Below are positions 9,456 to 56,494 of a stretch of DNA of 64,000 bases, one piece after another. Made by a program: the position numbers and the translations under genes. Source of the stretch: Glutamicibacter protophormiae (GTDB lineage: Bacteria; Actinomycetota; Actinomycetes; Actinomycetales; Micrococcaceae); NCBI RefSeq assembly GCF_014647495.1, contig NZ_BMPH01000004.1:62001-126000 (forward strand). The letters run 5' to 3'. The notes below the pieces were generated by a model, which ran no database searches, had not been told where the DNA came from, and saw only the letters and a list, made by a program, of their open reading frames with translations. Each line of letters starts with the position of its first letter. Positions within the stretch are counted from its first letter, which is position 1.

Positions 9456-9501
9456 GCACCGCCCCGCACCAACCATTCGCACTACCGAGGATCCACCACC
9501 C

Positions 9502-10653
9502 ATGACCAAGTTCCTGGCACCCGCCGCCCTGCTCGCGCTCGGCGCCCTGGCCCTGACCGGCTGCACCGACAACAACGCCGCCGCCAGCGCGGACGGCTCG
9601 ATCGCCGTCACCGCGAGCGACGACGCCTGCACCCTGGCCAGCGCCACCGCCGCCGGCGGCACCCTGAGGTTCACCGTGAAGAACGAGGGCACCAAGGTCA
9701 ACGAGTTCTACCTGCTGGCCGAGGACGGCCTGCGCATCGTGGGCGAGGTGGAGAACATCGGCCCGGGCGTGAGCCGCGACCTGGTGGTCATGGCCCCCGA
9801 GGGCAGCTACTTCGCCGCCTGCAAGCCGGGCATGGTGGGCGACGGCATCCGCTCGCCCTTCACCGTGACCGCCGCGGCCGCCGGCCAGGAGGTCTCCGCG
9901 GACCGCGCCGCGCTGCAGAAGACCGCCGTGGACCAGTACGCCGCCTACGTGAAGGACCAGTCGCAGCAGCTGCTGGCCGGCACCGAGGACTTCGCGGCGG
10001 CCTTCGCGGCCGGCGAGGAGGCCACGGCGAAGGAGCTCTACCCGCAGGTGCGCATGCACTGGGAGCGCATCGAGCCGGTGGCCGAGTCCTTCGGCGACCT
10101 GGACCCGATCCTCGACGCCCGCGAGGCGGACCTGGAAGAGGGCCAGGAGTTCACCGGCTGGCACCGCGCGGAAAAGGACCTGTGGGCGCCGAAGGGCTAC
10201 ACCAAGATGACGCAGGCGCAGCGCCAGCAGATCGCGGATGGGCTCGTGGAGAACACCGCCGAGCTGGCCACCCGCGCCCAGGCGCTGGAATTCACCCCGG
10301 ACAAGCTGGCCAACGGCGCCAAGGAGCTGCTGGACGAGGTCGCCACCGGCAAGGTCACCGGCGAGGAGGAGGCCTTCTCGCACACCGACCTGTGGGACTT
10401 CCAGGCCAACCTGGAGGGCGCGAAGATCGCCTACGAGGACCTGGCCCCGCTGCTGAAGGGCACCGAGGACGCGCTGGATGCCGAATTGGCACAGAACTTC
10501 GCGACGCTGCAGGAACAGCTGGACGCCTACCGCGTGGGCGAGGGCTTCAAGTACTACGATCAGCTGTCCACCGCGCAGGTGCAGGAGCTGGCCGCCGGGG
10601 TCGACGCCCTGTCCGAGCCGCTCTCCCGCCTGACCGCCGCGGTGGTCAAGTAG
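9502..10653 (+). CDS. efeO: Iron-uptake lipoprotein EfeO (cupredoxin-like plus M75 imelysin domain)
   Basis: 383-residue lipoprotein: signal peptide with lipobox LTGC near residue 19-22. About residues 35-125 form a cupredoxin-like domain and the rest an imelysin/M75-type helical domain. The M75 HxxE motif is seen as HWERIEP, and GWHRAEKDLW is also conserved. EfeO is thought to bind extracytoplasmic iron and hand it to EfeU. The ATG at 9502 is taken because the lipoprotein signal starts there; a frame from 9448 would overlap efeU. Confidence 0.93.
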   Translation: MTKFLAPAALLALGALALTGCTDNNAAASADGSIAVTASDDACTLASATAAGGTLRFTVKNEGTKVNEFYLLAEDGLRIVGEVENIGPGVSRDLVVMAPEGSYFAACKPGMVGDGIRSPFTVTAAAAGQEVSADRAALQKTAVDQYAAYVKDQSQQLLAGTEDFAAAFAAGEEATAKELYPQVRMHWERIEPVAESFGDLDPILDAREADLEEGQEFTGWHRAEKDLWAPKGYTKMTQAQRQQIADGLVENTAELATRAQALEFTPDKLANGAKELLDEVATGKVTGEEEAFSHTDLWDFQANLEGAKIAYEDLAPLLKGTEDALDAELAQNFATLQEQLDAYRVGEGFKYYDQLSTAQVQELAAGVDALSEPLSRLTAAVVK

Positions 10654-17418: not shown

Positions 17419-19215
17419 GTGGATATTCAGACGGAGCCCCTCGACGCCTATATGGTCACCTGGCAGGTGGAGCTGGAATTCGGCGGCATGACCACTGTCT
17501 GCCTCCAGCGCGCCGCGGCATTTGCCGAACGCTACGGGCACGCGTCCGTGGTGACCTTCAACGCGGACCCCGCATACGAGGTGGTGCTCCAGAGCCTGCG
17601 CGAGCGCGGCAAGCTCTCGGAGAAGGTCCGGCATGTGAACTTCTACGAGCATCTGGCGGCGCATCCGCTGAAGCCGCAGGCCAAGCTGGCGGCGGCGAAA
17701 TTCGTTCCGGAGCATACCGACTTCAGGGCCGCGCTCAGCAACACCTACCTCGACTCGGACACTGCCACATTCAGCGAGCAAAGCTACGCCGGCCCGGAGA
17801 AAGAGGTCGAGCGCAAGTCCTACTTCCGCCGCAACGGAACGGTATACCTGACCGATACCAAGTTCCCTTCCGGCGGAACGGAACGCCGCCTGCTTGAAGT
17901 TGTCAACGAATCCGGCGCGGTGACCGCGCGCTTCGCCAGCGCCGCCGCGTTGTACCGGTACTGGCTCTCCGAGCTGGTGGACCACGAGCATTCGCTGGTG
18001 GTCGTCGACAGCAAGTTCTCCGCCAAGTTCCTCAGCGCCTGGAACACGGTCCACGTACCCAAGCTGTTCGCCTTCCACAGCACGCATGTCAAGGCAGGGC
18101 AGAACCTGCTGACCGGTGCGCTCGCCGATGGGCATGCACCGATGATCGAGCAACGCGCGAAGTGGGACGGCTTCGTTTTCCTGACCGAGGCGCAGCGCAG
18201 CGCCTACGTGGCGCGTTTCGGGGATGCGGAACGCACTTTTGTCGTGCCCAACCCGGTGCGCAGCGGGCACATCGATCCCCCGCTGCCGCAGCGCAACCCC
18301 GCCCACCTGATTGCCGCAGGATCCCTGACCGTCAACAAGAACGTGGCGGCCTCGATCAAGGTGGTTGCCGAGCTGAAGAAGCGCGGGCTGGAGGCCACGC
18401 TGAACGTGGTTGGCCAGGGCTCGCAGCTCAATGTGCTGGAGCAGCTGGCCAGCGACCTGGAAATCCGGGACAACATCGTCTTCCACGGGTATTCGGACCA
18501 GCTCCCCCGGCATTTCGCTGCCTCGGCCATCCACCTGCTGACCTCGACCAACGAGGGGCAGGCGCTGGTGCTGATCGAGTCGCAGCAGCAGGGCTGCGTG
18601 CCGGTGTCGTACGACATCAACTTCGGCCCGGCCGATTCCATCACCGACGGGCACAACGGCTTCCTCCTCCCCCACGGGGACATCACCGCGATGGCGGACA
18701 AGGCCGAGGCGTTGATCCGCGACCAGGAGCTGGCGGCGCGCATGTCGGCCAACGCGAGGAAATTCGCCGAGGACTGGGCCAGCCGGGACATCGTAGCCCT
18801 GTGGATCGAGACCAGGGACGAGGCAGCCAGGCTCAAGAAGTCCGGCTCCCCCGAGCAGCTCGCGGCATTCACCGCGGATCTGCAGGGCATGGATTTCCTT
18901 GACGGGTCGGTGAAGATCCGCTTCGCCCACGGCGTGCCGGCACCGGTGACGGGCCAGTTCGAGCTGGTGCTCATCGGGCGCGATTCCAAGGAGGTCCTCG
19001 CCAGCATCCCCGCCAGCGAGGTGGCCGCGGAGAACGCGGCGTTCACCGTCAGCACCGAGATCCTGGCCCAGCCCGGCGTCGCGGATGCCATTGGCGACGC
19101 GAGCGTGAAGTTCAGCAACGGCTCAAGCTCGGAAACGAAGCGGCTGCGGCTCGCGGACCCGGTGCTCGTGCCGTACCTGACGGCCTACAACAACCTGTCG
19201 ATCAAACGCGTCTGA
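17419..19215 (+). CDS. GT4-family glycosyltransferase, TagE/TarM-like, with C-terminal beta-rich extension
   Basis: 598 residues from a GTG with GTAAGGA 8 bases upstream. The N-terminal part has the ELEFGGMTTVCLQRAAAFAE start resembling poly(glycerol-phosphate) alpha-glucosyltransferases. The GT-B C-terminal domain shows the retaining GT4 E-x7-E motif in TSTNEGQALVLIESQQQG. About 110 extra residues follow and end TAYNNLSIKRV, a beta-strand type ending that resembles the end of the protein at 47343-48107. The likely role is transfer of a sugar to a teichoic-acid-type polymer, but acceptor and donor are not determined. It stands alone, 25 kb from the glycopolymer locus. Confidence 0.8.
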   Translation: MDIQTEPLDAYMVTWQVELEFGGMTTVCLQRAAAFAERYGHASVVTFNADPAYEVVLQSLRERGKLSEKVRHVNFYEHLAAHPLKPQAKLAAAKFVPEHTDFRAALSNTYLDSDTATFSEQSYAGPEKEVERKSYFRRNGTVYLTDTKFPSGGTERRLLEVVNESGAVTARFASAAALYRYWLSELVDHEHSLVVVDSKFSAKFLSAWNTVHVPKLFAFHSTHVKAGQNLLTGALADGHAPMIEQRAKWDGFVFLTEAQRSAYVARFGDAERTFVVPNPVRSGHIDPPLPQRNPAHLIAAGSLTVNKNVAASIKVVAELKKRGLEATLNVVGQGSQLNVLEQLASDLEIRDNIVFHGYSDQLPRHFAASAIHLLTSTNEGQALVLIESQQQGCVPVSYDINFGPADSITDGHNGFLLPHGDITAMADKAEALIRDQELAARMSANARKFAEDWASRDIVALWIETRDEAARLKKSGSPEQLAAFTADLQGMDFLDGSVKIRFAHGVPAPVTGQFELVLIGRDSKEVLASIPASEVAAENAAFTVSTEILAQPGVADAIGDASVKFSNGSSSETKRLRLADPVLVPYLTAYNNLSIKRV

Positions 19216-42935: not shown

Positions 42936-44573
42936 CTACATTTCGAATGATGAAGGCACCGGCAACAAGTCATGAAGCAAACGAGGAACAAGGCGCCGAA
43001 TTTCGTTTCGCTTCTCCTCAGATACTTCCTGCGACCCATCGTTGATAACCACTACTTCAACATCCCTTCGCCTCGTGATTCGCCTAAGCCGTGAAACAGC
43101 AATCGAATCTGCTGGATCAATGTAGTCGTACCTGATCCTGCCTGGAACAGCACGACCGGTACTAAGGGCGAAGTTGAAATAGAACGATCCGGCTAACGCC
43201 GCGTCGGAAAGTGACCGAAATTTGGCACGGCTCGTGGCAGCAAAAACTTCAGGATAGCGCTCCTCCATCTCATTCATGACGCTGACTCGAAGAGCGTATG
43301 GAGTATGGAAAAATTTCCGATTGTATGTAGGGAATCCATCCCGAGAAAGGATTTGACGTGCATTCTTCGCCGCCACCGTCGAAACATTGTCTTCATCAGA
43401 AATCGGCGAAAAATCCACCAGAGCCCTCGAATAGAAGACCTTAGAGATTCCGTTAGCATGGAAAAACCGTTCAGGACTGAGCGGTGAGGTGAGTATCATG
43501 TCATCGTTGAAATAGAGGAAATGCTCAGACAATTCCTTGATCCGGTGAAGGTTCGCCTCAATGGCATGAGAGTTGAATACCGGAAGCTCGGTGGAATCTT
43601 TCCAAATCTCCGAGTGGTCAACAATTTGGACTTTTGAATCCACACTACTATTTAGCCAATTTGGGCGCTGCCTATCCGTGACAATGTAGATTTTTCGAAT
43701 CCAAGGTGCATACTGCTCAATAGATCTCAAACAGTACCGAAGCTCATCTAAGGATTCAAAGCGCGAAACATCAACTGCATTTTTGACCAAATCATCGTCG
43801 GAGTTACCAAGGGCCGCACTCTTGCGTTTCTTCCACTCAACATCATCGCCATCAACCCAAGTAATCACTGCATCAATTGGGAAATCGACATCATAGCCTA
43901 GAGCAGAATTGGCTGCTCCCATGTGCTCCGCCCAAGAAACAGCATTCGAGACCGGGTCAGGGAGCTCAGTAGCACGCGGGTTCCAAACTTCACTGATCAA
44001 CCGGTCTGTCTTAGCATCTGAACCCCAGCGGATAATATCTACCCCCTGCAGGGCATTGCCGAAAAAATGGGATTTCTCGCCAGAAGCCACATATCGATAT
44101 AACCTGACGCCCACGACGTCAGACCGGTTTGCAAGGGCCGCGACAAATTCTTCCTTGGAAATCGCCCTACCGTTAGGTAGGAGTGCACGAAAATACCACG
44201 AGGTGAAAGACGGATCCCCAGCAATGCTCTCCAGCGCTTTCCTATAATCGCGTGAGGGAATATTGACAATTGGTATACCCGAGTCCCCTCGTTCGAATAT
44301 CCAATGCGAGAGGTTAAGCTCTTGCAACTTCGTCTTGATTATCAATAGGTTTGATTTCTTTAGTGAATCAAGATTTAGATTGCAATCAATTTCCGCAATC
44401 CGAGGCCCCACCGGAGCACTGAACAAAATTCTTCCCTCAGCATCTTCTGCTGTCAAATTTTGCTTTACTGACGCTACGGAAACCATAATACTTTCCGTCC
44501 GCCTACGAACATTTCGAGAAAGCGAGGCGACGGCACTGTGTTTAAACTTGGTTGCTAACTTGCTCAATTCCAT
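42936..44573 (-). CDS. Stealth-family sugar-phosphate transferase
   Basis: About 545 residues. Conserved Stealth regions: CR1 FPIDAVITWVDGDDVEW; CR2 ESLDELRYCLRSIEQYAPWI with IYIVTDRQRPNWL; the LPVFNSHAIEANLHRI and FLYFNDDMIL boxes; CR3 NARQILSRDG and FFHTPYALRVS; CR4 GSFYFNFALSTGRAVPG. Stealth proteins transfer hexose-1-phosphate units in capsule and wall polymers. The N-terminal 230 residues are specific to this copy. The ATG at 44573 is chosen because it starts after the previous gene's stop and has GGATAAAG nearby; 44486 is an alternative. Codon use is AT-rich relative to the housekeeping genes around it. Confidence 0.85.
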   Translation of the reverse strand: MELSKLATKFKHSAVASLSRNVRRRTESIMVSVASVKQNLTAEDAEGRILFSAPVGPRIAEIDCNLNLDSLKKSNLLIIKTKLQELNLSHWIFERGDSGIPIVNIPSRDYRKALESIAGDPSFTSWYFRALLPNGRAISKEEFVAALANRSDVVGVRLYRYVASGEKSHFFGNALQGVDIIRWGSDAKTDRLISEVWNPRATELPDPVSNAVSWAEHMGAANSALGYDVDFPIDAVITWVDGDDVEWKKRKSAALGNSDDDLVKNAVDVSRFESLDELRYCLRSIEQYAPWIRKIYIVTDRQRPNWLNSSVDSKVQIVDHSEIWKDSTELPVFNSHAIEANLHRIKELSEHFLYFNDDMILTSPLSPERFFHANGISKVFYSRALVDFSPISDEDNVSTVAAKNARQILSRDGFPTYNRKFFHTPYALRVSVMNEMEERYPEVFAATSRAKFRSLSDAALAGSFYFNFALSTGRAVPGRIRYDYIDPADSIAVSRLRRITRRRDVEVVVINDGSQEVSEEKRNEIRRLVPRLLHDLLPVPSSFEM

Positions 44574-44616
44574 ATACTTTATCCGATCAAAAAAAGAATG
44601 ACTGACTGTTCTTAAT

Positions 44617-47340
44617 CTAAACTTCGTCGATAGTCGGGTAAGGGAACCTAGCACGGAAGAATTGATCAAGCATTTCGTCTACCTCGGCCGAACTAAAATT
44701 GGCATTTTCGGCCTCGCCGAATGTAATCATGTCAAATCGATCTGTTGCGACGAGATTGCTTAGACGTGGGCGCAAGAAATCATCACCTAAAGAGCAGTAT
44801 GCATAACGAACTGATCCTGGTTCATAAGTCCCAGTAAAGTAGCCGAAATACTGCGCGAATGATGACAATAAGGAGATGTCTGTTTCACTTCTGAACTTTG
44901 CTGCCCGTACGGACTTAAATATTTCGCTATAGTCGGTTTCGATTCTCTGAAGTGTCGACCTACGATGCGGGTGTGGCGTGTGCAGCATCGCCCGGGTAAT
45001 CACCTTGCCAAATCGTTCTTGCAGGACACGGCGGTTATTCTGAGCAGCCCACATATGCGGTTCGACATCTTGCTGAGGTCGGAGGTCTACCTTGACAGGT
45101 GACAGGAAGAACTTCGCTATGCCGTTCGCGTGGAAGTAATTTGCGGGCACCTGCATACGCAAGAGCATGGTGTCATCGTTAAAGTACAAGAAATGCTCGG
45201 CGAGCCCAGGAATGCGATGTAAGCATGATTCGATTGCATGGGAATTGAACACCGGAAGTACACTCGGATCAGGGAAAATTTCTCTGTGTGAAATTACCTG
45301 AATTTCCGACTCTTGGGAGAGCCAAGCCGGCCGCTGATCCGCAGTAACAACGTAGATGTTCCGGACCCACGGCATGAACGTACGCACACTTCGAACCGAA
45401 TACTTCAGTTCATCACGATTGCGAAACCGCATCGCGCCAGCCGCGAGATCTCCGCCATCATCGCTGGCTGGACTATGCGCCTCTTTCTGGGAACGCCAGT
45501 CGGGATCAGAGTCATCAACCCATGTATAAACCACATCAATTGGGAAATCTATCTGATCCCATAGTGGAGAATAGAACAGTTGAGAATTCGAATCGAAATC
45601 ATGGTCAAGAAGCAGATCCACGCCAGGGTTGTGACGAGGTGGAACCCAGCCGCTACGTTCCTCATCATAACTCCAGATTTCAATGTCAACGCCAAATGCT
45701 GATCCCCAAGTAAACCGACGCAGAGGGTCTGATTCCGGAGTGAACAGTCTAAATACATCGGCTGTCTCAGCCTGCATGGCCGATAATTGTTCGATGCCAG
45801 GATGCCAGTCTGAAGAAGAGATGACACTATTACCCCGAAGTGGCTTGACACATAAACTCTCCAGCGACTCTTTCAATAGCGTAAGGAGTAGCTGCTCACG
45901 GTCATCGCTCCTGATGGCTATCGAGCGTCGGAAATAGCCGTAGGCAGGGACATTAACATGCGCAATCTGACCGCTCTCGAGGAACCTGACTGCATCATCA
46001 AAATTCTTAGTCTGCACGGCTCCGACAGAAAGATCATCAGGCTCAACTATTGAAACTTCAAAAGGGACCGGTGAATCTTTTTCAAAGAAATTTTTAGTTT
46101 TGTCTGCGTCATATAGGTTTGGATCTTCTGCGGTAGCGGTTATTCGCATATGTCGTCGATTGGTTTCTGATCGAGATTCAGTACCCGCACGGCGTTCCAA
46201 CAAATCTGAGTACAGTTGAATCCAACGGTCAACAACGAGATCCGGAGTATACCGACTAGCAGTTAATATTGCCCGTTTCCCCATGCCATTGCGCAGAGCA
46301 GAGTTGTCCGCAAGGGTTGCCAAAGATTCTGCAAAAAGTTGAACATCATTGAGCGGAACTAGCAATCCGTCAACTCCGTGGGTAACAATGTTCCTGGGGC
46401 CGATTGGGCAATCGTAGGCGACAGTCGGGACACCCGCCGCCGCTGATTCTAAAATCACAAGTGGTTGACCCTCTGCACGCGACGTCATCGCATGAATACT
46501 CGCGTTTTGCCATTCCATGGTCAAATCGCCAAGGTCGGTTGTGAACGCAACAGCATCCTGCAGGTTCAATTCGCCAACCAGCTCACGCAAGGCCAATTCC
46601 TGCGGACCGTTGCCATATAGACGTAGCTTCCAGTCCGGATGATCCGCATGAAAAATTGCAAATGCTCTGATCAGATGATTAAACTGCTTCCCCGGTGCAA
46701 AGCGGCCCGCAGCAATAACAGTCTTGTTGTCCAACGTCGACTGAGGCCTAAAAATATCATCGAGGGAATTAGGGACTATTTCACTCACGAAGCCTTGCGC
46801 TTGAAAATTCTCATCAATCCATTCTTTGTTCTCTTGATTCAGTGAAACGATAGCGTCCAAATCATGTGCAACAGCTTGAAGTGGCTCGATTCCTTTGCCG
46901 CGCTGCATACTCGCACGATGCTCTTGAGCGACTAGTACAGTGTTTCCCGGCAAGAAAAGCGATCCAAGCATGGCCAGAGCTGGCGTCGTGGTTACCACAA
47001 CGTCAGCCCTGATTTTACCGAGCTCCTCTCGTGCTACAAGTTCGGTGAGCTGGCTGAATTGATCGTCCCATTCTCTTCGAATGAGCATTGCTGGCAATTG
47101 GTTCAATTCTCGGGAAGCCAACACATCAAAGTTCCCCGATAGATCATGCGCATTTTCACCGAGCCAGTAAGTGACCCTAGCGACGTCGCCAATCGCTTCA
47201 CTAAGTGAGCCGTCCGTTCTGTACAGACTAAAAACTGAGATTTCGTGTCCACGTGAAACAAGGGACCGGATCTGCGACTGGATTGCATGTTCTGTTCCAG
47301 CTTTAGAATCACCGGTCGTCAACAAGAATGAAATTTTCAT
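44617..47340 (-). CDS. Bifunctional GT4 glycosyltransferase-Stealth fusion
   Basis: 907 residues. Residues 1 to about 385 are a GT-B/GT4 enzyme (MKISFLLTTGDSKAGTEHAI start; E-x7-E in SRAEGQPLVILESAAAG). A linker of about 210 residues, partly similar to the N-terminal region of other Stealth proteins, leads to a Stealth domain from residue 599: CR1 FPIDVVYTWVDDSDPDW, CR2 NRDELKYSVRSVRTFMPWV, VFNSHAIESCLHRIPG, FLYFNDDTML, CR3 NNRRVLQERFG and LHTPHPHRRS, CR4 SSFAQYFGYFTGTYEPG. One protein could thus add a sugar and a sugar-phosphate in alternation. It begins 2 bases after the upstream gene's stop. Confidence 0.87.
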   Translation of the reverse strand: MKISFLLTTGDSKAGTEHAIQSQIRSLVSRGHEISVFSLYRTDGSLSEAIGDVARVTYWLGENAHDLSGNFDVLASRELNQLPAMLIRREWDDQFSQLTELVAREELGKIRADVVVTTTPALAMLGSLFLPGNTVLVAQEHRASMQRGKGIEPLQAVAHDLDAIVSLNQENKEWIDENFQAQGFVSEIVPNSLDDIFRPQSTLDNKTVIAAGRFAPGKQFNHLIRAFAIFHADHPDWKLRLYGNGPQELALRELVGELNLQDAVAFTTDLGDLTMEWQNASIHAMTSRAEGQPLVILESAAAGVPTVAYDCPIGPRNIVTHGVDGLLVPLNDVQLFAESLATLADNSALRNGMGKRAILTASRYTPDLVVDRWIQLYSDLLERRAGTESRSETNRRHMRITATAEDPNLYDADKTKNFFEKDSPVPFEVSIVEPDDLSVGAVQTKNFDDAVRFLESGQIAHVNVPAYGYFRRSIAIRSDDREQLLLTLLKESLESLCVKPLRGNSVISSSDWHPGIEQLSAMQAETADVFRLFTPESDPLRRFTWGSAFGVDIEIWSYDEERSGWVPPRHNPGVDLLLDHDFDSNSQLFYSPLWDQIDFPIDVVYTWVDDSDPDWRSQKEAHSPASDDGGDLAAGAMRFRNRDELKYSVRSVRTFMPWVRNIYVVTADQRPAWLSQESEIQVISHREIFPDPSVLPVFNSHAIESCLHRIPGLAEHFLYFNDDTMLLRMQVPANYFHANGIAKFFLSPVKVDLRPQQDVEPHMWAAQNNRRVLQERFGKVITRAMLHTPHPHRRSTLQRIETDYSEIFKSVRAAKFRSETDISLLSSFAQYFGYFTGTYEPGSVRYAYCSLGDDFLRPRLSNLVATDRFDMITFGEAENANFSSAEVDEMLDQFFRARFPYPTIDEV

Positions 47341-47342
47341 GC

Positions 47343-48107
47343 CTAGCGAAGACCTTTCTTAATTACTTTCAATGCCAAATGACCGTCTATAGTCCAGTAG
47401 ATCCGAGCTTTCGAAGAGAAGCGATCGTCCCCTACCCAGAACCACGGATATTTAAATGATTTTCTTGGGTTAATATTCTTTTGACCCCAAAAAGTCACTC
47501 GGCTGTCTGAATCGCCTCGAATATAGAAGTCCCACAACGATTCTCCATCTCGAAGACTATGAAGAGCGTCACTGAGTTCAGTAAGTGAAAAAACATTGCC
47601 ATCTCCATCGACAGTTGTTCCCGAATTAACTACAATCCCAGATTTGCGCGGGCGTATCGTGAGCTTCTGGGCATTAGGGAACCACAGTTGGACAGAATCG
47701 TGGTTGGTAATGATCTTTGGATCGTCAAGCCGGTTGCTTGGATTGAAGAAAAAATAGCGAGACGCCAGCCCAAGAAATTTAAGAACCCGACCGGATACTG
47801 CGGGCAGAGCAGGATATTGAACGGTTCCAGAGCCACCCGGGATTTCCAAGCGGTATCGTCGACCAGAAGGTGATATGCAGAAAACGGCAAACCTTCTTTG
47901 AGGCTTCAAAGTTGCTTGAAAGTGCTGCAGGCCTTGTACATCTCGAACGAACTCCATGGGACTTGCGTTCAACTTTGAACCACATTCCTGGAGTTGAACC
48001 TTGAGAGGGCTGTTGGAAAAACCGCTCTTCGAAGATTCAATAAGAACGCTCAAGAGCCCGGACTCTGAAAGGGAGAATCGAACGATTGTTGGAGCTTGCC
48101 GTGTCAT
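47343..48107 (-). CDS. Unknown protein in the glycopolymer locus, beta-rich
   Basis: 254 residues; family not recognised. No signal peptide or membrane helix. Its pattern of short hydrophobic strands suggests a beta-sandwich, and the ending ARIYWTIDGHLALKVIKKG resembles the ends of other teichoic-acid enzymes with N- or C-terminal beta domains, including the GT4 protein at 17419-19215 (TAYNNLSIKRV). It may bind the polymer or a partner enzyme. The ATG at 48107 has no ribosome site but a TATAGC about 8 bases upstream, so the message could be leaderless. Probably co-transcribed with the fusion gene that follows. Confidence 0.7.
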   Translation of the reverse strand: MTRQAPTIVRFSLSESGLLSVLIESSKSGFSNSPLKVQLQECGSKLNASPMEFVRDVQGLQHFQATLKPQRRFAVFCISPSGRRYRLEIPGGSGTVQYPALPAVSGRVLKFLGLASRYFFFNPSNRLDDPKIITNHDSVQLWFPNAQKLTIRPRKSGIVVNSGTTVDGDGNVFSLTELSDALHSLRDGESLWDFYIRGDSDSRVTFWGQKNINPRKSFKYPWFWVGDDRFSSKARIYWTIDGHLALKVIKKGLR

Positions 48108-48587: not shown

Positions 48588-49952
48588 TCAAAATTCATAA
48601 GACGACTTTAGTGGAAAAATACTTTCCAACATTCTTCGAACGATAATGTCTCGTTGACTCGAATTGCTCGTAGACAACACTTCATTAATGCAGAAGACTG
48701 AAGGCCGCTTGAGCCGCATAAATCTCCAAGCGTCTAGATAAAATTCGTCTGATCCAATCTCGAGGTATTGATAATCAATATCAGCGGAGTATCCCAAACC
48801 GAGGCGTGCAGCGATGTGATGAGCAAGAGAAGAAGGAATTGAAAGGTCCAGTTCCCCTCGGAATTTTTGCCTTGAGATCCTTTTGATCTCTTCCGGGTAA
48901 TTGTCTTTCAAGTACTCATGGACCGTTTTACGTTGCGGATGCGCTACATGTTTGAATTTCCGCGATACCGTTCGATCAAAATCACGTATTAGGATATTCC
49001 TATTATTTCGTGCTGCCTGGTTAACGGGAAGATCCACATCGTTTTCAAGTGCGAAATGCCGATTTGACAGTGAAAATTTCGTTTGTCCGACAGGTCCATA
49101 GAATGCATTCGGATGCAACATCTTGCCGAAGAACACATCGTCATTGACGTATATAAAATGCTCTCTTAGCCCAGGTATATTGGATAAATTCGCCTCAATT
49201 GCGTGAGAGTTGAATGTGGGAAGTGAATCACTTGGGTTTTCAAATATTTCTTCATGGGATACAAGGGTGAGCTTCGGATGATCCTTGGCTAACCATTGGG
49301 GTGCTTGCCCCGCTGTAACTAAATACACATGGTTGATCCAAGGCATATTCAGTTCCAGTGATCGAAGAGAAAACAAAAGTTCGTCGCGTGATTTGAAGCG
49401 CCCGAGTCCCGCAACGCTTTCGCGGTAAGGATAATCTTGATTTTGCAATGATCTCTGATAATCTTCTTGCCACGACTGATCGGAAGAATCGACCCATGTA
49501 TAGACCGCATCGACTTTACCGACAAAATCTTGGGCATCCCATATTGCGGAAATATTGCTTGCATAGACGTGCCAGATCGCACCAAGCCCCCGCAGATCCA
49601 TCTTGGCCATCATATCGCCATTGTCAAATCGATCGCGAACACTCCACGATTCTACGGCAGCATAGCCATGTTGGCCAGATAACTTTGAAATTACTAGACC
49701 TTTTTGTTCGAAATCTTTACGCAAACGCTGCCAGTCGCTTATTTGAATACAGTTACCTGTAGAATTGCGATCTTTGGTAAAATCTATTTTTAGATTATTC
49801 GCTACGTGGGTCGTTAAATTTTCGTTATAAAATCTAATTTCTGAAATTGTGCGTTGTTCTGAGTTCGAATTTTTGAGGGAGTTATTTAACAAATGACGAT
49901 ATAAATCGTCGGGTAACATACGCCCGATCTTACCACGCCATCCTGTTATCAT
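48588..49952 (-). CDS. Stealth-family sugar-phosphate transferase
   Basis: About 454 residues with CR1 VGKVDAVYTWVDSSDQSW, CR2 KSRDELLFSLRSLELNMPWI and HVYLVTAGQAPQWL, the FNSHAIEANLSNIPGL and FIYVNDDVFFGKM boxes, CR3 NNRNILIRDF and KHVAHPQRKTVHEY, and CR4 PSSLAHHIAARLGLGYSAD. I chose the ATG at 49952 because GAGGGAG lies 6 bases upstream. The frame continues open to about 50105 with sequence that reads like protein (PWNILLHGESPLWG), but there is no start with a ribosome site, so a longer ancestral N-terminus may have been lost. AT-rich codon use. Confidence 0.83.
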   Translation of the reverse strand: MITGWRGKIGRMLPDDLYRHLLNNSLKNSNSEQRTISEIRFYNENLTTHVANNLKIDFTKDRNSTGNCIQISDWQRLRKDFEQKGLVISKLSGQHGYAAVESWSVRDRFDNGDMMAKMDLRGLGAIWHVYASNISAIWDAQDFVGKVDAVYTWVDSSDQSWQEDYQRSLQNQDYPYRESVAGLGRFKSRDELLFSLRSLELNMPWINHVYLVTAGQAPQWLAKDHPKLTLVSHEEIFENPSDSLPTFNSHAIEANLSNIPGLREHFIYVNDDVFFGKMLHPNAFYGPVGQTKFSLSNRHFALENDVDLPVNQAARNNRNILIRDFDRTVSRKFKHVAHPQRKTVHEYLKDNYPEEIKRISRQKFRGELDLSIPSSLAHHIAARLGLGYSADIDYQYLEIGSDEFYLDAWRFMRLKRPSVFCINEVLSTSNSSQRDIIVRRMLESIFPLKSSYEF

Positions 49953-50136
49953 GTGCGCTCCCTCAATATGGGTCAATTTCTCAAAATCTTGCAAAACCAT
50001 TGCATCAACTATTGATGCTATATCTGTTTCATCACCCCAAAGTGGTGACTCACCGTGTAGAAGAATATTCCAAGGCAACTGCCAGAAATTGAAAGACTCT
50101 CGGATCTAATATGATTAGTTCTACGGACTTCAGGGA

Positions 50137-50598
50137 TTAACTTAATTCTTTGACAATCTGACTCAAAGTATCAAGGGTGTTCTTCAATGATTCAACATGC
50201 CGTTCATCGAATTCGCTAAGAACTCGCTTCATCTCGGTAGTCGAGATTCCGGCAGTGCGCGGTAGGTATACGACTTCGACTTCGTCGCCAAGATCGTCGA
50301 ACTTGCCCTTCCAGTCTTCACCGATTCCGAAGACTTTCACATCGTACTTCTTGATATCAAGTCGTTTCTGTTCCCAGTTTTCCTCCGGGATGGCGAGGTC
50401 GACATATTTGATAGACTCAACGATTTCTCGTCGCTGTTCGAACGGAACAACCGGCTTCTTGCCCTTAATAGCGTTGAATTCATCTGTCGACACACCAACG
50501 ATAAGGCGGTCGCCCTTTTCGCTAAGGCGCTTGAGGATATTGAGGTGCCCGATGTGGAAAAGGTCGAAAGTTCCGTACGTCAAAACAGTTTTCGTCAT
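50137..50598 (-). CDS. tagD: Glycerol-3-phosphate cytidylyltransferase
   Basis: 153 residues of the nucleotidyltransferase family. It joins glycerol-3-phosphate and CTP to make CDP-glycerol. The signature TYGTFDLFHIGHLNIL (HxGH) and the C-terminal RTAGISTTEMKRVL motif fit TagD/GCT. GGAGGT precedes the ATG at 50598. CDP-glycerol normally feeds TagB/TagF, which are not found in this window; a CDP-alcohol phosphotransferase-like gene lies nearby. Confidence 0.92.
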   Translation of the reverse strand: MTKTVLTYGTFDLFHIGHLNILKRLSEKGDRLIVGVSTDEFNAIKGKKPVVPFEQRREIVESIKYVDLAIPEENWEQKRLDIKKYDVKVFGIGEDWKGKFDDLGDEVEVVYLPRTAGISTTEMKRVLSEFDERHVESLKNTLDTLSQIVKELS

Positions 50599-50661
50599 GT
50601 TTACCTCCAAGTCACGTTTAACGTGCATAGTGATCATTTAAGCGGTTAGGACCGCTTCTGG

Positions 50662-51591
50662 TTAAAGAACAGGCGGGCGCCCGGCCAAAGTCATTCGAAT
50701 GATGGTTCGCCAGGAAAGTTTCGGCCGTGGTTCCAAGTACCACGGGCTACCCTTCCAGCCTGCTTTCCACCCTGAGAGGTATTGTTTCACGCCGCTTTTG
50801 TTTTTGCGTAACCTCAGACATTCGACGAGCATCCATGAAATAGGATAAATCCATGCAAACGGGACGGGAAGGTTTCTCCGTGCCAGCCAAACTCGGTTAC
50901 GTGCGTTAAGCCGGTAAAATTCGTCATGCCGACGCGGGTCGATTACCGGATGCCCGATCCTCATATCGCCCGCATACCACACGTAAGTACCAGTGTCCCA
51001 AACACGCCAGGCAAGTTCGATCCCTTCGTGCGCGTACCAAAATCCGCCGGCCCAGCCACCAGTCTCGTCGAATAATTTTCGTTTAGTCACTAAACAGGTT
51101 TCGCCAACGTGAAAGACCTTACTCGGGTCAATGGCCGTTCTCTTGTTGAGACGAGGAATCCATCTTGTCGGGTTCTGATCCTCATGTTCCGGGTCTGTGA
51201 TTCGAGGCTGCAGCAGTCCCATCTTTGGGTGTTTTTCGAACCTGTTAACTGCGGTAATCAGAAAGTCATTGTCCAAGAACCATGAATCGTCGTCTAGGAA
51301 ACACAGGTACTCTCCAGAGACATGATTGACACCGGCGTTTCGTCCAGCGGGGATACCTTGGTTTTCCGGCAAATGGAGAGTTTTGATCGATTCTGGAATT
51401 CCTGAGGGATCCCAACCATTTCCTACCACGACGGCGTCAATTGAAACTCGTTCTTGGGCAAGGAGAGAATCCAGTGCGCGTCGCAGTTCAGCAGGACGAT
51501 TGCCCATGGTGAGAACAACAACACCAATCGATGGCTGGCCGGTGGGCTGCAACGCGGATTCCTGTCCATGTGACGTGTTTGATAATTCCAT
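50662..51591 (-). CDS. GT2-family glycosyltransferase
   Basis: 309 residues. The GT-A fold starts with SIGVVVLTMGNRPAELRRAL; the DxD motif is CFLDDDSWF, preceded by NQGIPAGRNAGVNHVSGEY; the acceptor-side region FWYAHEGIELAWRVWDTG carries the late acidic residues typical of rhamnosyl- and galactofuranosyl-type GT2 enzymes. No membrane helix. It acts on the cytoplasmic face, adding a sugar to the growing polymer. Two bases separate its start from the stop of the CDP-alcohol transferase gene. Confidence 0.87.
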   Translation of the reverse strand: MELSNTSHGQESALQPTGQPSIGVVVLTMGNRPAELRRALDSLLAQERVSIDAVVVGNGWDPSGIPESIKTLHLPENQGIPAGRNAGVNHVSGEYLCFLDDDSWFLDNDFLITAVNRFEKHPKMGLLQPRITDPEHEDQNPTRWIPRLNKRTAIDPSKVFHVGETCLVTKRKLFDETGGWAGGFWYAHEGIELAWRVWDTGTYVWYAGDMRIGHPVIDPRRHDEFYRLNARNRVWLARRNLPVPFAWIYPISWMLVECLRLRKNKSGVKQYLSGWKAGWKGSPWYLEPRPKLSWRTIIRMTLAGRPPVL

Positions 51592-51593
51592 AT

Positions 51594-52415
51594 CTATGCC
51601 CTAAGCCTCGATGAAGCCATATTGGAAAGAAAATGGCCTGCATTGACCAGTACGCAGGCCGGCAGCAAGATCCAGATTATCCACTTTTCAGCAACGCCAG
51701 GTACACCCAACGCTACCGAAATGATAGAACAAAACAGAATAATTAGGCTGAGCTCAACAGCGTGCAAAAGTTTATGGAACGGCAAGAATCGTGCCAGGGA
51801 GCGTAGCCGGCCGATCAGCGTGGTTGTCGGTACGGCACGAGCAGCGGCGGTATCTGGCAGCTTGCCCAGACCAGCCATCCCACGTGCTGCGTGGACCATC
51901 AAGGACTGGGAACGGTTTAGTACCAAAAGAACTGACAGACACGCGGCCATGAACAACGTTGGCCATGCTTGGCCAGCGCTAACAGGATCACCTGATAGCT
52001 CGGTAAACACGCGGTAGCCCAAGGCGATTGGAATCAGTGCTTCGGTCGTGTGATGTCCGACCATGTCGATAAAGATCCCGCGCGGCGATTGTGAAGCACG
52101 CCAGCGTGCAACTTCACCGTCCGAGCAGTCGAAGTACAGCTGCACCTGTGAGAACACGACAGCCAGCAACGGACCCCAGATACCAGGGATCAACAATGCC
52201 AGCGACATGCACCACCCAGAAAGGATCATTAGCCCGGTCACCCCATTAGCGGTAATCCGTGTTCGGACCAAGACAGCTGTCAGGTAGATCGAGATATGCC
52301 GAAGGTACAGTTCTGCAGTCCAATGCTCCGCATTCTTTCGAGCACGCACTTCAGGAGGCTGGCAGACTGCCCGTAACTGTTCCAAGGTGGGATTCTTTGG
52401 ACGTTCGACGGTCAT
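51594..52415 (-). CDS. CDP-alcohol phosphotransferase-family membrane protein with altered motif
   Basis: 273 residues with about six membrane helices. The family motif D-x2-DG-x2-AR-x8-G-x3-D-x3-D appears as FDCSDGEVARWRASQSPRG followed by IFIDMVGH, so the last Asp is His. That position is normally the catalytic base, so either the chemistry or the substrate differs, or His takes the role. Related enzymes transfer phospho-alcohols from CDP-alcohols. With TagD in the locus, CDP-glycerol is a plausible donor (inference). The ATG overlaps the stop of the upstream GT2 gene (ATGA), so translation is coupled. Confidence 0.83.
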   Translation of the reverse strand: MTVERPKNPTLEQLRAVCQPPEVRARKNAEHWTAELYLRHISIYLTAVLVRTRITANGVTGLMILSGWCMSLALLIPGIWGPLLAVVFSQVQLYFDCSDGEVARWRASQSPRGIFIDMVGHHTTEALIPIALGYRVFTELSGDPVSAGQAWPTLFMAACLSVLLVLNRSQSLMVHAARGMAGLGKLPDTAAARAVPTTTLIGRLRSLARFLPFHKLLHAVELSLIILFCSIISVALGVPGVAEKWIIWILLPACVLVNAGHFLSNMASSRLRA

Positions 52416-53449
52416 TTGACTCGCCCCCGATCCAATGTTCCGGCCGCGCCCACGACTCGGCCCTTCACATATCCGGCGGCCCACGGCAGATGGATGCTCT
52501 GGAATGCTACAGCTGCGAGCAGTTTCTCGCCGAGGTTTTCAGCTTTGGACGAGATGCCAGCGGCAACCGTGGCGCCAGCGTAAAGTAGCGGTGCGACCTG
52601 GAGCAGATTCAATCCGGCACGGGCTACCTTGGGGAGTTTTGGCGTAACAAAAGGCGCAGCGAGCGTCGCCGCGAGGCCAGCACTTACACCAAGAAGCAAT
52701 AGCGGTGGCAAGTCGTGGCGCAGGGACTTGCCTTCGGGGTAACGACGGGCGATTTCACCACGCCATGTACCCGAAGCGTATGACTGGCGAATCAGCGCCT
52801 TGAAATTATCACGCGGGTAATAGCCGACCTTCAGTTCCGGATCGAACCAAACTTTGTACCCTGCCTGACGGATCCGCATGCACAGTTCCCAGTCCTGGGC
52901 CCTCCACATGTCTTCATTGTAGAGTCCAACCTTTTCGAAAACTTCCCGTCGGAAGATGCCAAGGTAGGCCGACTCGGCTTCGCCCTCGGGTGCACCCGAG
53001 TGGTATGCGGGGCCGCCAAAACCGAATTTCGAATGATATGCTGCCGCGATCGCACGTTGAACTGGCGTTTTTCCCTTGGCGTCCATAAGCCCACCGACAT
53101 CGTGGGCGCCGACGCGGAACAGCGTCTCAACTCCTCGCCGAGTGTATTCGGGAGGAAGCTCGCTATGGGCATCGACCCTCATAATGATGGGGTGGGTTGA
53201 TTTGCCAATGGCGAGGTTCAGCGCATTGGGTGTCCGGCCTCTCGGATTATCAACGAGGATAATACGGGAGTCTTCAGAGGCCAGGCGTTTCGCAACAGCG
53301 TTGGTGCTATCGCTGCTTGGGCCCAATGCAAGAACTAGTTGCTTGTCGCCCTCGTATTCCTGGGAGAGGATCGATTGAACAGCCTCATGCAAATATTCGG
53401 CTTCGTTCAGCACCGGCATGACGTATGAAACGCCAGGAAAGTCAGTCAT
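52412..53449 (-). CDS. GT2-family glycosyltransferase with C-terminal membrane helices
   Basis: 345 residues. The GT2 domain has SYVMPVLNEAEYLHEAVQSI at the start, a DxD-like MRVDAHSELP, and the RAQDWELCMRIRQAGYKVWF box that replaces the QxxRW region. The C-terminal third has two or three hydrophobic segments (LLLLGVSAGLAATLAAPFV and AGLNLLQVAPLLYAGATVAA), resembling the succinoglycan/ExoA group. It would use a lipid-linked acceptor. Its stop overlaps the next gene by 4 bases and its start lies 7 bases after tagH. Confidence 0.87.
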   Translation of the reverse strand: MTDFPGVSYVMPVLNEAEYLHEAVQSILSQEYEGDKQLVLALGPSSDSTNAVAKRLASEDSRIILVDNPRGRTPNALNLAIGKSTHPIIMRVDAHSELPPEYTRRGVETLFRVGAHDVGGLMDAKGKTPVQRAIAAAYHSKFGFGGPAYHSGAPEGEAESAYLGIFRREVFEKVGLYNEDMWRAQDWELCMRIRQAGYKVWFDPELKVGYYPRDNFKALIRQSYASGTWRGEIARRYPEGKSLRHDLPPLLLLGVSAGLAATLAAPFVTPKLPKVARAGLNLLQVAPLLYAGATVAAGISSKAENLGEKLLAAVAFQSIHLPWAAGYVKGRVVGAAGTLDRGRVK

Positions 53450-53456
53450 CTGTCAC

Positions 53457-54341
53457 TTACTTCTTATGCTGTTGATACGCCTTGATAACCGTGTCCGGGT
53501 CGCCGTCCATCTTCTGAACACCCTTCTCGATCCAGATGCATCGGTTGCAAGTTTCTTTGATGGAATTCATCGAGTGCGATACCAGGAAAACCGTTCCGGC
53601 GTTTTCCCGGATCTCACGAATCTTGGCTTCACTGCGCTTGCGGAATTTGGCATCGCCGACCGCTAATGCCTCATCGACAATGAGAATGTCATGCTGCTTG
53701 GAGGCAGCAATGGCGAACTTCAAACGGGCAGCCATTCCCGACGAGTAAGTTCGCATAGGCAGATCGATGAACTCTTCTAGCTCGGCGAACTTCGTAATTT
53801 CTTCACGCATAGTTTCAACTTCTTGACGGTTGTAGCCAAGGGCCAAACCACCAAGGGTAATGTTCTTGTCGCCTGAAAGGTCCGGAATCAGTGCCGCACC
53901 AACACCCAGCAGGCTTGGCCTGGATCGTGCGTACACTGCACCGGAAGCGGGCGGCGTGAGTCCAGTAATGGCTCGTAACAGCGTCGACTTACCGGATCCG
54001 TTGGAACCGATGATGCCGATCGACTCATTCTCGTACGCAACGAAAGAAATACCTTGGAGCGCGTGGACTGTACGAACACCGCGCATCTTTGGCTGCAGCA
54101 ATCGCCGTGCTCCGGCGGTTCCAACAGCCTTTCCACTGGAAAATACCTGGTACTTCACATGGAGGTTGTCCACCATGACGACAGGCTGTCGAGTTTCATC
54201 AACGGTGAGGGTGGATGACTTGATGTCTTCGGGCTTGACTACATCGATGAACGACGTGTCGTCGGAAAATATCGGAGCGGGTTCGTATTCCGGGTGGAGC
54301 CCGGGATTGATTAAATCGTCAAAACTAATTGGCACGGCCAT
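53457..54341 (-). CDS. tagH: Teichoic-acid-type ABC exporter, ATP-binding subunit
   Basis: 294 residues. Walker A is GIIGSNGSGKSTLLRAITGL, the ABC signature is RTYSSGMAARLKFAIA and Walker B is DILIVDEALAVGD, followed by the H-loop LVSHSMNSI. The N-terminal 60 residues are an acidic extension specific to this branch. With TagG it moves the finished polymer across the membrane. GAGGAG precedes the ATG, which overlaps the tagG end by 17 bases. Confidence 0.94.
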   Translation of the reverse strand: MAVPISFDDLINPGLHPEYEPAPIFSDDTSFIDVVKPEDIKSSTLTVDETRQPVVMVDNLHVKYQVFSSGKAVGTAGARRLLQPKMRGVRTVHALQGISFVAYENESIGIIGSNGSGKSTLLRAITGLTPPASGAVYARSRPSLLGVGAALIPDLSGDKNITLGGLALGYNRQEVETMREEITKFAELEEFIDLPMRTYSSGMAARLKFAIAASKQHDILIVDEALAVGDAKFRKRSEAKIREIRENAGTVFLVSHSMNSIKETCNRCIWIEKGVQKMDGDPDTVIKAYQQHKK

Positions 54342-55173
54342 AGAGCTCCTCAGCCTTCCAGAAATAAATGAGTCCGAAGCCCAGCGCCAGCAGCGCCCAG
54401 ACGGAAACTACAATCCATGCGAATGGATCGTAGGTGGCATCATTCATGATCATTGCGCGGGCGATTTGCAGCGTCTGGTACAGCGGATGAAAGTCGAATA
54501 TCTGAACGAGCCAAGGCCAGTGGTTCAAGATTCGGTCAACGCTGAATAGAACGCCCGAGGTGTAGAACAGCATGCGGGTAATCAGTGGCAGGATCTGGGT
54601 GAAGTCCCTAATGTGCACAGTGATTCGAGCGCAGATCAGGGCGATTCCCATATTAAAAACGCTGAAGATCATGAGCAACGGGATGATGACAAACCACGAC
54701 CATTTGGGAGTTGTGCCAAGAATCATCGCGTAAATGAACATGACTATGACCATGGGCATCAATGTCAAGAGATTCTGAGTAACCTGGGCAACCGGCAATG
54801 TCAGCCGGGGGAAGGATAGCGATTGGACCAGCGCTTGGTTACCGGTGATGGACTTCGCGCCACCGTTCATGGAACTCGTAAAGAACTCGAAGAGGAATAC
54901 CCCGATAACAACGAAAACTGGAAAGTCTGGGCCCTTACTGTCGCCTTGCAAGACGCCGAAGATGACGCCATACATAATCGCGTTCATCGTCGGTTTGAGA
55001 ACAACCCAGATCATACCCAAGCGGTTCTGCTGATTTTGCTTCTGAACACGCGCCTTGGCAAGTTCGTAGATGAACTCACGCCGTTCCCAAGTCTGCTTCA
55101 GGTAGCTGGCCAAGCTTGGGCGGGCACCCACACGGTGCAAGCCAAACTTCTCGGCTTCTTCTGCCACTGTCAT
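54325..55173 (-). CDS. tagG: Teichoic-acid-type ABC exporter, membrane subunit
   Basis: 282 residues of the ABC-2 permease type: a cytoplasmic start and coupling segment (QTWERREFIYELAKARVQKQ) and then six membrane helices. The NRLGMIWVVLKPTMNAIMYG and SFPRLTLPVAQVTQNLL regions are typical of TagG/Wzm. The ATG at 55173 is taken because GAGGACA lies about 8 bases upstream. The tagG-tagH pair is preceded by the LCP and galU genes in the same direction. Confidence 0.94.
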   Translation of the reverse strand: MTVAEEAEKFGLHRVGARPSLASYLKQTWERREFIYELAKARVQKQNQQNRLGMIWVVLKPTMNAIMYGVIFGVLQGDSKGPDFPVFVVIGVFLFEFFTSSMNGGAKSITGNQALVQSLSFPRLTLPVAQVTQNLLTLMPMVIVMFIYAMILGTTPKWSWFVIIPLLMIFSVFNMGIALICARITVHIRDFTQILPLITRMLFYTSGVLFSVDRILNHWPWLVQIFDFHPLYQTLQIARAMIMNDATYDPFAWIVVSVWALLALGFGLIYFWKAEELYGRAN

Positions 55174-55312
55174 GTGTGAATTGTCCTCATTGTCTTCAAC
55201 CAACTTTTGTGCCGTAATAACACAGATGTTCAAAGTCTAGTAGATCGGTCTGGATTTTCGACGATTTCGCCTGCCACGGGTGCACAACTGTAGTGTCTGT
55301 CACTCGTTCAAT

Positions 55313-56380
55313 CTATTCTTGGGGCGGATTTTCCTTGAGATACTCATCCATCGTGTCGGCTTTCAACGCTACACGAATTTGCTGGATGGCCTGCTCGCTG
55401 GGCAGTTCAATTGACTGGCCATCTGCACTCGTGGAACTGCCAGCTGTTGGCATCGTGAACATTGCCAAGTCGTTCGTATCGACGTTTTTGAGCTGCATTC
55501 CCAAACCGACTAGCGTTGCGGCATCGAAGCTGCTGTCAAAGGTCAGGTAGGGCGACACCTTATCGACGATGTCGTACAGCTTGACCGGGTTGGTCAGCGT
55601 ATCGGCCGATAACATCTGGCTTGCGGCAGCTGCGATGAATTTCCGTTGATTGGCGACCCGCTGATAATCACCGTTGCTGAATGACTTGCGCTCGCGAACA
55701 AACCTCAAGGCCCGGTCACCTTCCAGAGTGATCTCGCCTTGGGGGTAGAAGTAGTCGGTGTCGTGGGCTGTGAAAGGGATGTCGTTCTGAACTGTCACGC
55801 CGCCGAGGGCGGTGGACAACTCCTTGAATCCATCAAAGTCGATCATGGCAACATGATCAACTTTGGTGTCGAAAAGTCCTTCCATCGTTTGCACTAAGAG
55901 GGGAATACCGCCAAAAGATACGGCTGCGTTGAGTTTGTTCTTCCCATATCCAGGGATGTCAACGTACATGTCTCGGACCGTAGACATAATGTATATCTGC
56001 GAACGGTCCTCCGGAACATGTACGAGCATCATGGAATCGCTGCGCTGGCTGACTGCCCCATCCAAGGCAGCCGATTGGGCTGAGTTATCGTCTGCATGGT
56101 CAACACCAACCAGCAAAATATTCATGGATCCATCATCGGGATCCTTTACCGGCCGTGCATCTTCTTGTTCTTGGGTGAAGTTAAGGTCAACGGTGTTGGT
56201 TTTGGAATTGAAAGCATGCTGCAAGTTGAAGAGATAGTATCCAGCGCCCAGCACGGCAATCAAAAGCACGGCCAGCGCGGAAAGAACAACGGCTCTTACG
56301 CGTTTCTTCTTTCGCCGCGCGGCACCAAAACGCACACTTCGAGTGCTGATGTCATTCTGACTTGGATCGTTTGAGTTCAT
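55313..56380 (-). CDS. LytR-CpsA-Psr (LCP) family glycopolymer ligase
   Basis: 355 residues: basic cytoplasmic start (ARRKKKRVRAVV), one membrane helix (VLSALAVLLIAVLGAGYYLF) and an extracellular LCP domain. Landmark motifs are MNILLVGVDHADDN, RSDSMMLVHV, MSTVRDMYVDIPGYG, ALRFVRERKSFSNGDYQR and NQRKFIAAA. LCP enzymes transfer lipid-linked wall polymers to peptidoglycan. The end contains a GSSTSADGQSIELP segment, closely matched by the partial LCP at 63798-64000. It lies between galU and tagG, as expected for a wall-polymer locus. Confidence 0.93.
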   Translation of the reverse strand: MNSNDPSQNDISTRSVRFGAARRKKKRVRAVVLSALAVLLIAVLGAGYYLFNLQHAFNSKTNTVDLNFTQEQEDARPVKDPDDGSMNILLVGVDHADDNSAQSAALDGAVSQRSDSMMLVHVPEDRSQIYIMSTVRDMYVDIPGYGKNKLNAAVSFGGIPLLVQTMEGLFDTKVDHVAMIDFDGFKELSTALGGVTVQNDIPFTAHDTDYFYPQGEITLEGDRALRFVRERKSFSNGDYQRVANQRKFIAAAASQMLSADTLTNPVKLYDIVDKVSPYLTFDSSFDAATLVGLGMQLKNVDTNDLAMFTMPTAGSSTSADGQSIELPSEQAIQQIRVALKADTMDEYLKENPPQE

Positions 56381-56494
56381 TTCTATCCCACCGAGAAAAT
56401 TCCGTCGAAGCCAACGGACCTTCCAAGTGACTTCGTGCAATCAAAAAGACTACCCAAGATAAATGTGATTATCCTGAGTAGCCTTTAATGACTG

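Follow-up and report, generated by a model that had tools for sequence, protein, structure and literature searches.

A 64,000-nucleotide stretch of Glutamicibacter protophormiae DNA (hereafter the window; C4:62001-126000, in an assembly of 3.83 Mb and 38 contigs) encodes a 273-residue CDP-alcohol phosphotransferase (CDP-AP; window positions 51594-52415, minus strand, as are all genes of its locus). The enzyme represents a subfamily that lacks the fourth Asp (D4) of the catalytic motif and whose genes are linked to genes for CDP-polyol supply and polymer export. Its sequence and genomic setting suggest a conserved membrane polyol-phosphate transferase, which would take CDP-glycerol from the cytidylyltransferase TagD and act on a lipid-linked oligosaccharide in a priming or linkage step of wall polymer synthesis. 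This function is plausible, if short of probable. The donor, the acceptor and the order of steps are predicted from gene content.

The CDP-AP passes the Pfam cut-off for PF01066 (27.1 bits; cut-off 22). Its motif, DCSDGEVARWRASQSPRGIFIDMVGH, retains D96, D99 and D117, carries H121 at the D4 position and retains E125, as an earlier note on this DNA had read it: intact apart from a final Asp-to-His change. The full four-Asp motif, DxxDGxxAR(x8)GxxxDxxxD, is not satisfied, and the protein is filed on sequence grounds as a variant of the class I CDP-alcohol phosphotransferase superfamily rather than as an orthodox member. D4 is His in all 24 named relatives described below and, across 93 aligned rows drawn from several classes (92 distinct, L083 and L124 being duplicates), it is His in 82, Ala in 11 and Asp in none. 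A sequencing error or strain oddity is thereby ruled out, and the absence of the D4 Asp is a mark of the whole subfamily. The 11 Ala sequences come from nine genomes of a single family with 7-10-Mb genomes and form one clade in 93% of 200 bootstrap trees; the family appears to be Streptomyces-like, judging from its synteny, which resembles that in the available part of PMC13118837.

D96, D99, G100, E101, A103, R104, G113 and D117 are invariant in the 93 rows, in part through selection, since the pattern used to choose the rows fixed D1, D2, G, A, R, G and D3 and left D4 free. Eight residues outside the motif are also invariant (E30, H31, W32, R39, S42, R178, E221 and S268). Residue 125, one helical turn past D4, is acidic in every row (Glu in 80, Asp in 13), and the aligned position of AF2299 is Asp. 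A structure model of moderate quality (pLDDT 68) gave 4q7c, 4o6n and 4o6m as top Foldseek matches (E 1e-4, TM 0.48-0.50), with PIP synthases and IPCT-DIPPS as weaker ones (E 0.01). AF2299 (4o6m) is the nearest solved relative both by sequence and by fold. The subfamily thus shares with the AF2299, PIP synthase and IPCT-DIPPS group of class I enzymes the fold and the D1xxD2GxxAR...GxxxD3 portion of the motif, and with AF2299 the acidic residue at D4+4. Unlike that group, it has His or Ala at D4 and sits in wall-polymer loci with CDP-polyol supply genes.

According to the available parts of the sources, the fourth Asp of Mycobacterium tuberculosis PgsA1 binds metal 2 and presumably acts as the base (PMC6506517), and the activity of a eukaryotic CDP-AP falls when Ala replaces any one of its four Asp (PMC10182977). 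The base proposed for CHPT1 is a His at D3+1 (PMC10182977), and that proposed for CEPT1 is a nearby His, not at D4 (PMC10156783). Because the CHPT1 residue sits at D3+1, a His base has a precedent close by, though at a position other than D4. In the window protein and its relatives, H121 or the invariant acidic residue 125 may take over the role of the missing Asp.

The genes around the CDP-AP point to its possible substrates. The product of tagD (50137-50637) resembles solved glycerol-3-phosphate cytidylyltransferases (E 1.3e-44 to 2b7l and 1.7e-43 to 1coz) and scores 160.6 bits against its NCBIfam model, slightly short of the 165.4-bit cut-off; CDP-glycerol is its expected product. Two GT2 glycosyltransferase genes flank the CDP-AP. 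GT2b (50662-51591, PF00535) starts 2 bases past the CDP-AP stop, and the stop of the upstream GT2a (52412-53449, assigned by Pfam) overlaps a possible CDP-AP start, the ATG at 52415, in an ATGA. These four genes, which the earlier note had called from the DNA alone, are real as judged by Pfam and by similarity to solved structures. The translational coupling that it saw between CDP-AP and a GT2 also recurs: 20 of 24 relatives have a GT2a that ends in ATGA or GTGA.

These relatives were found among 67 stretches that matched a search pattern, 24 of which encode a CDP-AP relative. One of the six patterns contained the His, so this search favours His; the order and phylum scans described below used no such pattern. 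The 24 named loci come from Glutamicibacter, Paeniglutamicibacter, Arthrobacter, Zafaria and one further member of the Micrococcaceae, and share the gene order coaD, galU, LCP (LytR-CpsA-Psr), wzm, wzt, GT2a, CDP-AP, GT2b and tagD, followed by a variable stretch. GT2b adjoins CDP-AP in all 24, and tagD lies 0.9-2.7 kb downstream of CDP-AP in each of these closely related loci; a Stealth gene stands between GT2b and tagD in three. Past tagD, 15 of the 24 carry TagF-like genes on the same strand, with which the PF04464 matches coincide, and in L024 and L025 the TagF-like matches are on the opposite strand. The locus of G. creatinolyticus (L020) has a cassette of the window type, with Stealth proteins 50, 57 and 49% identical and a relative of a 254-residue window protein at 32%; its tagD is 86% identical to that of the window. 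CDP-AP is present with TagF and Stealth cassettes alike, and its retention across cassette types suggests a role in priming or linkage. The idea that it substitutes for TagF is ruled out by the presence of both in one locus in those 15 relatives. It accompanies the classical teichoic acid enzymes and does not replace them.

The association with TagD extends beyond close relatives. Of 297 sampled genomes of the order, the CDP-AP was matched in 65, and 64 were counted after leaving out G195 (E 6e-6 over 82 residues); D4 is His in all 64. TagD, scored with TIGR01518 at E<=1e-20, was detected in 65 genomes of the sample: 46 of the 64 with the His variant and 19 of the 233 without it (Fisher 4e-24, the genomes being non-independent). 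Counted by genus, the figures are 10 of 16 with the variant and 11 of 78 without (p 1.4e-4). The co-occurrence of tagD and the variant is borne out, and tagD lies within 5 kb of CDP-AP in 24 of the 46 genomes with both. The association fits CDP-glycerol as the donor. A scan of the phylum matched 18 of 346 genomes at E<=1e-15. A same-strand match to GT2b lies no more than 5 kb away in 30 of the 50 loci from the order and in 9 of the 11 from the phylum scan. Many loci of the order and of deep lineages have, in addition, a long second CDP-AP whose D4 is intact.

Supply genes were counted in 61 loci, each at most 20 kb long, from 50 of the 64 order genomes and 11 of the phylum scan, and the nucleotidyltransferase and dehydrogenase counts cover these loci only. 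TagD occurs in 11 loci and a nucleotidyltransferase of 229-306 residues in 13; in 10, a gene for glycerol-1-phosphate dehydrogenase directly adjoins CDP-AP (9 of these also with a nucleotidyltransferase). Together, 34 of the 61 loci carry a supply gene, namely 11 with TagD and 23 others with the nucleotidyltransferase, the dehydrogenase or both; in none of the 61 does TagD occur together with either. Among the other 27 loci, 20 belong to genomes with TagD elsewhere. The variant is therefore not found mainly in loci without CDP-alcohol synthesis, the pattern that the earlier note would have counted against its proposal. The distribution of supply genes probably reflects a soluble CDP-polyol donor, with CDP-glycerol the predicted compound. 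Dehydrogenase homologues next to CDP-AP were seen in L147-L155 and L113, from deep actinobacterial lineages, often along with the long second CDP-AP, which in L148 carries DUF5941.

In the proposed pathway, TagD would supply soluble CDP-glycerol to the CDP-AP in this lineage, and the coupled GT2 enzymes would build the lipid-linked oligosaccharide acceptor. CDP-AP would then move glycerol phosphate onto this oligosaccharide at the cytoplasmic face, in a TagB-like priming or linkage step. An exchangeable cassette would elongate the polymer, with Stealth genes in the window and G. creatinolyticus and TagF-like genes in 15 of the 24 relatives. Wzm/Wzt would then export the polymer and an LCP enzyme would attach it. 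Transfer to a lipid-linked sugar followed by Stealth-mediated elongation had been put forward in the earlier note, and both may form part of this scheme.

That note had also described the system as lacking TagB and TagF. The description is correct for the window, in whose 64,000 nucleotides no PF04464 protein was found, and wrong for the genome, where five PF04464 proteins above cut-off, all outside the window, rule it out. The two strong ones, TagF homologues whose presence, combined with matching regulation, the note had said would undercut its proposal, lie 30-36 kb past the window end. One, at C4:159686 (E 1.4e-78), is a 1290-residue open reading frame (ORF) with TPR, PF04464 and GT4 domains. 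The other, at C4:157206 (E 3.3e-66), is an 809-residue ORF whose N-terminal part has TarF as top match (137.6 bits; cut-off 550). Beside these two genes are an integrase/transposase-type ORF (rve_3) and its neighbours (L037 6098-9892, C4:152-156k), and the pair may have moved recently. Two divergent PF04464 proteins of 443 and 448 residues are encoded near C4:222-224k (C4:221698-224141), and the fifth, of 372 residues, at C14:53411-54523. Homologues of this last protein were matched in 35 of 149 genomes of the family, 8 of them Glutamicibacter (the non-matching genomes are partly listed). In G. creatinolyticus (the L020 genome), the sole PF04464 match scores 21.5 bits against a cut-off of 22.1. 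However, a 375-residue ORF at the same position in a one-contig, 3.3-Mb Glutamicibacter genome (G746), taken as G. creatinolyticus on the strength of that position, is 60% identical to the C14 protein, and because the latter passes the PF04464 cut-off, a divergent TagB-like candidate persists there. LicD-type transferases gave no match in the window genome or in G. creatinolyticus; a search of 10 genomes yielded partial matches of 25-27 profile positions in three.

Several observations weigh against a priming role from CDP-glycerol, and those on PF04464 weigh most. PF04464 proteins are encoded in all 64 variant genomes of the order (48 at E<=1e-25, the other 16 above the Pfam cut-off), so CDP-glycerol has other possible users. 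The strongest point is that all 16 genomes without a strong TagF have a divergent PF04464 gene 0.3-5.0 kb from CDP-AP; the short PF04464 protein may instead be the priming enzyme. Short divergent PF04464 proteins (about 370-550 residues) often adjoin the His-variant CDP-AP and are possible TagB-like partners. Linkage is also uneven. In one family (f9), TagD is remote or on a different contig in 10 of 13 genomes and absent in 2 of 13, while of the 50 order loci, 15 have no GT2b recognised within 5 kb of CDP-AP and 5 have it on the opposite strand. Seven of the 61 loci have no recognised supply gene: L082, L083, L087, L089 and L093, whose genomes lack TagD at E<=1e-20, and L156 and L157, for which this applies to the locus alone, L156 being cut by a contig end. 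Among the alternative supply genes, the dehydrogenases reach 240 and 227 bits, below the 413-bit NCBIfam cut-off, and because no nucleotidyltransferase passed the cut-off of a curated NCBIfam model, CTP is a presumed substrate of these enzymes. Finally, 11 of the 93 rows have Ala at D4, which argues against His as an obligatory base; the existence of the Ala clade makes His dispensable in the subfamily.

The main alternative, which we regard as unlikely, gives all CDP-glycerol to the PF04464 enzymes, the long TagF and the short TagB-like proteins, and has the CDP-AP form the polymer's lipid anchor or head group from CDP-diacylglycerol. It draws on the presence of PF04464 in the window genome, in all 24 named relatives (at E<=0.001; 23 above the Pfam cut-off) and in all variant genomes of the order, on its position beside CDP-AP wherever a strong TagF is missing, and on the use of CDP-diacylglycerol by known enzymes such as PIP synthase, as given in the available part of PMC6506517. 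Against it, the CDP-AP tracks genes for soluble CDP-alcohol supply (TagD, the nucleotidyltransferase and glycerol-1-phosphate dehydrogenase), and its nearest solved relative in sequence and fold is AF2299.

It is improbable that the CDP-AP joins CDP-glycerol to polyprenol, polyprenyl phosphate or another lipid, forming a lipid-linked donor of glycerol phosphate for extracellular decoration of the polymer. The argument for the donor would be the same as for priming, the enzyme is an integral membrane protein and the flanking GT2s could work before or after it; yet the locus has no gene recognised as encoding an extracellular polyol-phosphate transferase, though no search was aimed at one. Slightly less credit still is due to a reading in which the relatives make an ordinary TagD/TagF glycerol teichoic acid and the window a Stealth sugar-phosphate polymer, with tagD a relic or serving a distant TagF and the CDP-AP unrelated in function or inactive. 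The two strong PF04464 genes past the window end, PF04464 in the locus of 15 of 24 relatives and the one deviating motif residue are consistent with this. In contrast, D1-D3 and eight non-motif residues do not vary among the 93 rows, which span several classes, a pattern unlike that of a dead enzyme, and tagD remains 86% identical in G. creatinolyticus, where there is no strong TagF. Very improbable is a different reaction, such as hydrolysis or exchange, brought about by the missing Asp, for despite the lowered activity of the eukaryotic Asp-to-Ala enzymes and the His or Ala at D4 here, the acidic residue one turn further is invariant in 93 of 93 rows and a nearby His, though not at D4, is the proposed base in CHPT1 and CEPT1.

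The remaining genes of the locus encode export, attachment and the variable cassette. An ABC export ATPase (Wzt/TagH-like, 53457-54341) and permease (Wzm-like, 54325-55233) are assigned by Pfam, with NCBIfam scores under cut-off. The LCP protein (55313-56440; PF03816, 135.6 bits) is syntenic in all 24 named loci. LCP enzymes link glycopolymers to the cell wall. The cassette comprises a Stealth protein (48588-50078), a GT4-Stealth fusion (44617-47340) and a further Stealth protein (42936-44669), the last two assigned by Pfam. All three have CR1, CR2 and CR3 above the Pfam cut-off; CR4 is under it in two, including the first, and unlisted in the third. The 254-residue protein inside the cassette (47343-48107) has no Pfam or NCBIfam match, no match among the TagF genes of the compared loci and, in the loci searched, a single relative, that of L020. 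Elsewhere, the genome encodes two other PF01066 proteins: one of 202 residues, PgsA-like by eye, on C12, and another at C4:173805 that has all four motif Asp. The latter lies in L038 (C4:164001-184000; 9496-10443, minus strand), about 7.5 kb from a second TagD-like gene (17935-18813, minus strand; C4:181956; 44% identity over 124 residues). Both share their strand and, by eye, a polysaccharide-type cluster with a GT2 gene and a large secreted-looking ORF. Because the four-Asp CDP-AP and the TagD-like gene share one cluster, the window genome has a second association of this kind.

The wall teichoic acid pathway of Bacillus and Staphylococcus uses TagD, TagB and TagF. The locus resembles it in TagD, the ABC exporter and LCP, and in the PF04464 genes of 15 of 24 relatives' loci; it differs in having a membrane CDP-AP in its core and, in the window, a Stealth cassette where TagF would be. 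A related arrangement already described is a Streptomyces synteny block of CDP-AP, GT2, tagGH, araM and a sugar phosphate nucleotidyltransferase linked to teichoic acid biosynthesis (PMC13118837). It has the same kinds of genes as L147-L150, and the available part of that paper names no mechanism, D4 change or TagD-bearing version. The window Stealth proteins share the CR1-CR3 domains with Stealth sugar-1-phosphate transferase polymerases such as those in the available part of PMC5974469. Unlike those, they are encoded with TagD and CDP-AP. No description of the D4 change or of a CDP-glycerol-using CDP-AP was found in the literature covered, which lies mostly outside subscription journals.

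The start and linkage of actinobacterial wall glycopolymers are, to our knowledge, poorly known. The conserved core of GT2, CDP-AP, GT2, CDP-polyol supply, ABC exporter and LCP, upstream of an exchangeable polymerase cassette, offers a concrete candidate for the priming step. The His/Ala subfamily is also a natural test of the need for the fourth Asp in the CDP-AP motif. A broader proposal, which we consider doubtful, is that these proteins form a new class of membrane-embedded glycerophosphotransferases whose fourth motif residue is His or Ala and that would prime wall polymers from CDP-glycerol fed by sn-glycerol-3-phosphate through TagD or by sn-glycerol-1-phosphate through an archaeal-type dehydrogenase and a nucleotidyltransferase. 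If true, the alternation of TagD and glycerol-1-phosphate dehydrogenase would mean that one enzyme family builds wall polymers on either stereoisomer.

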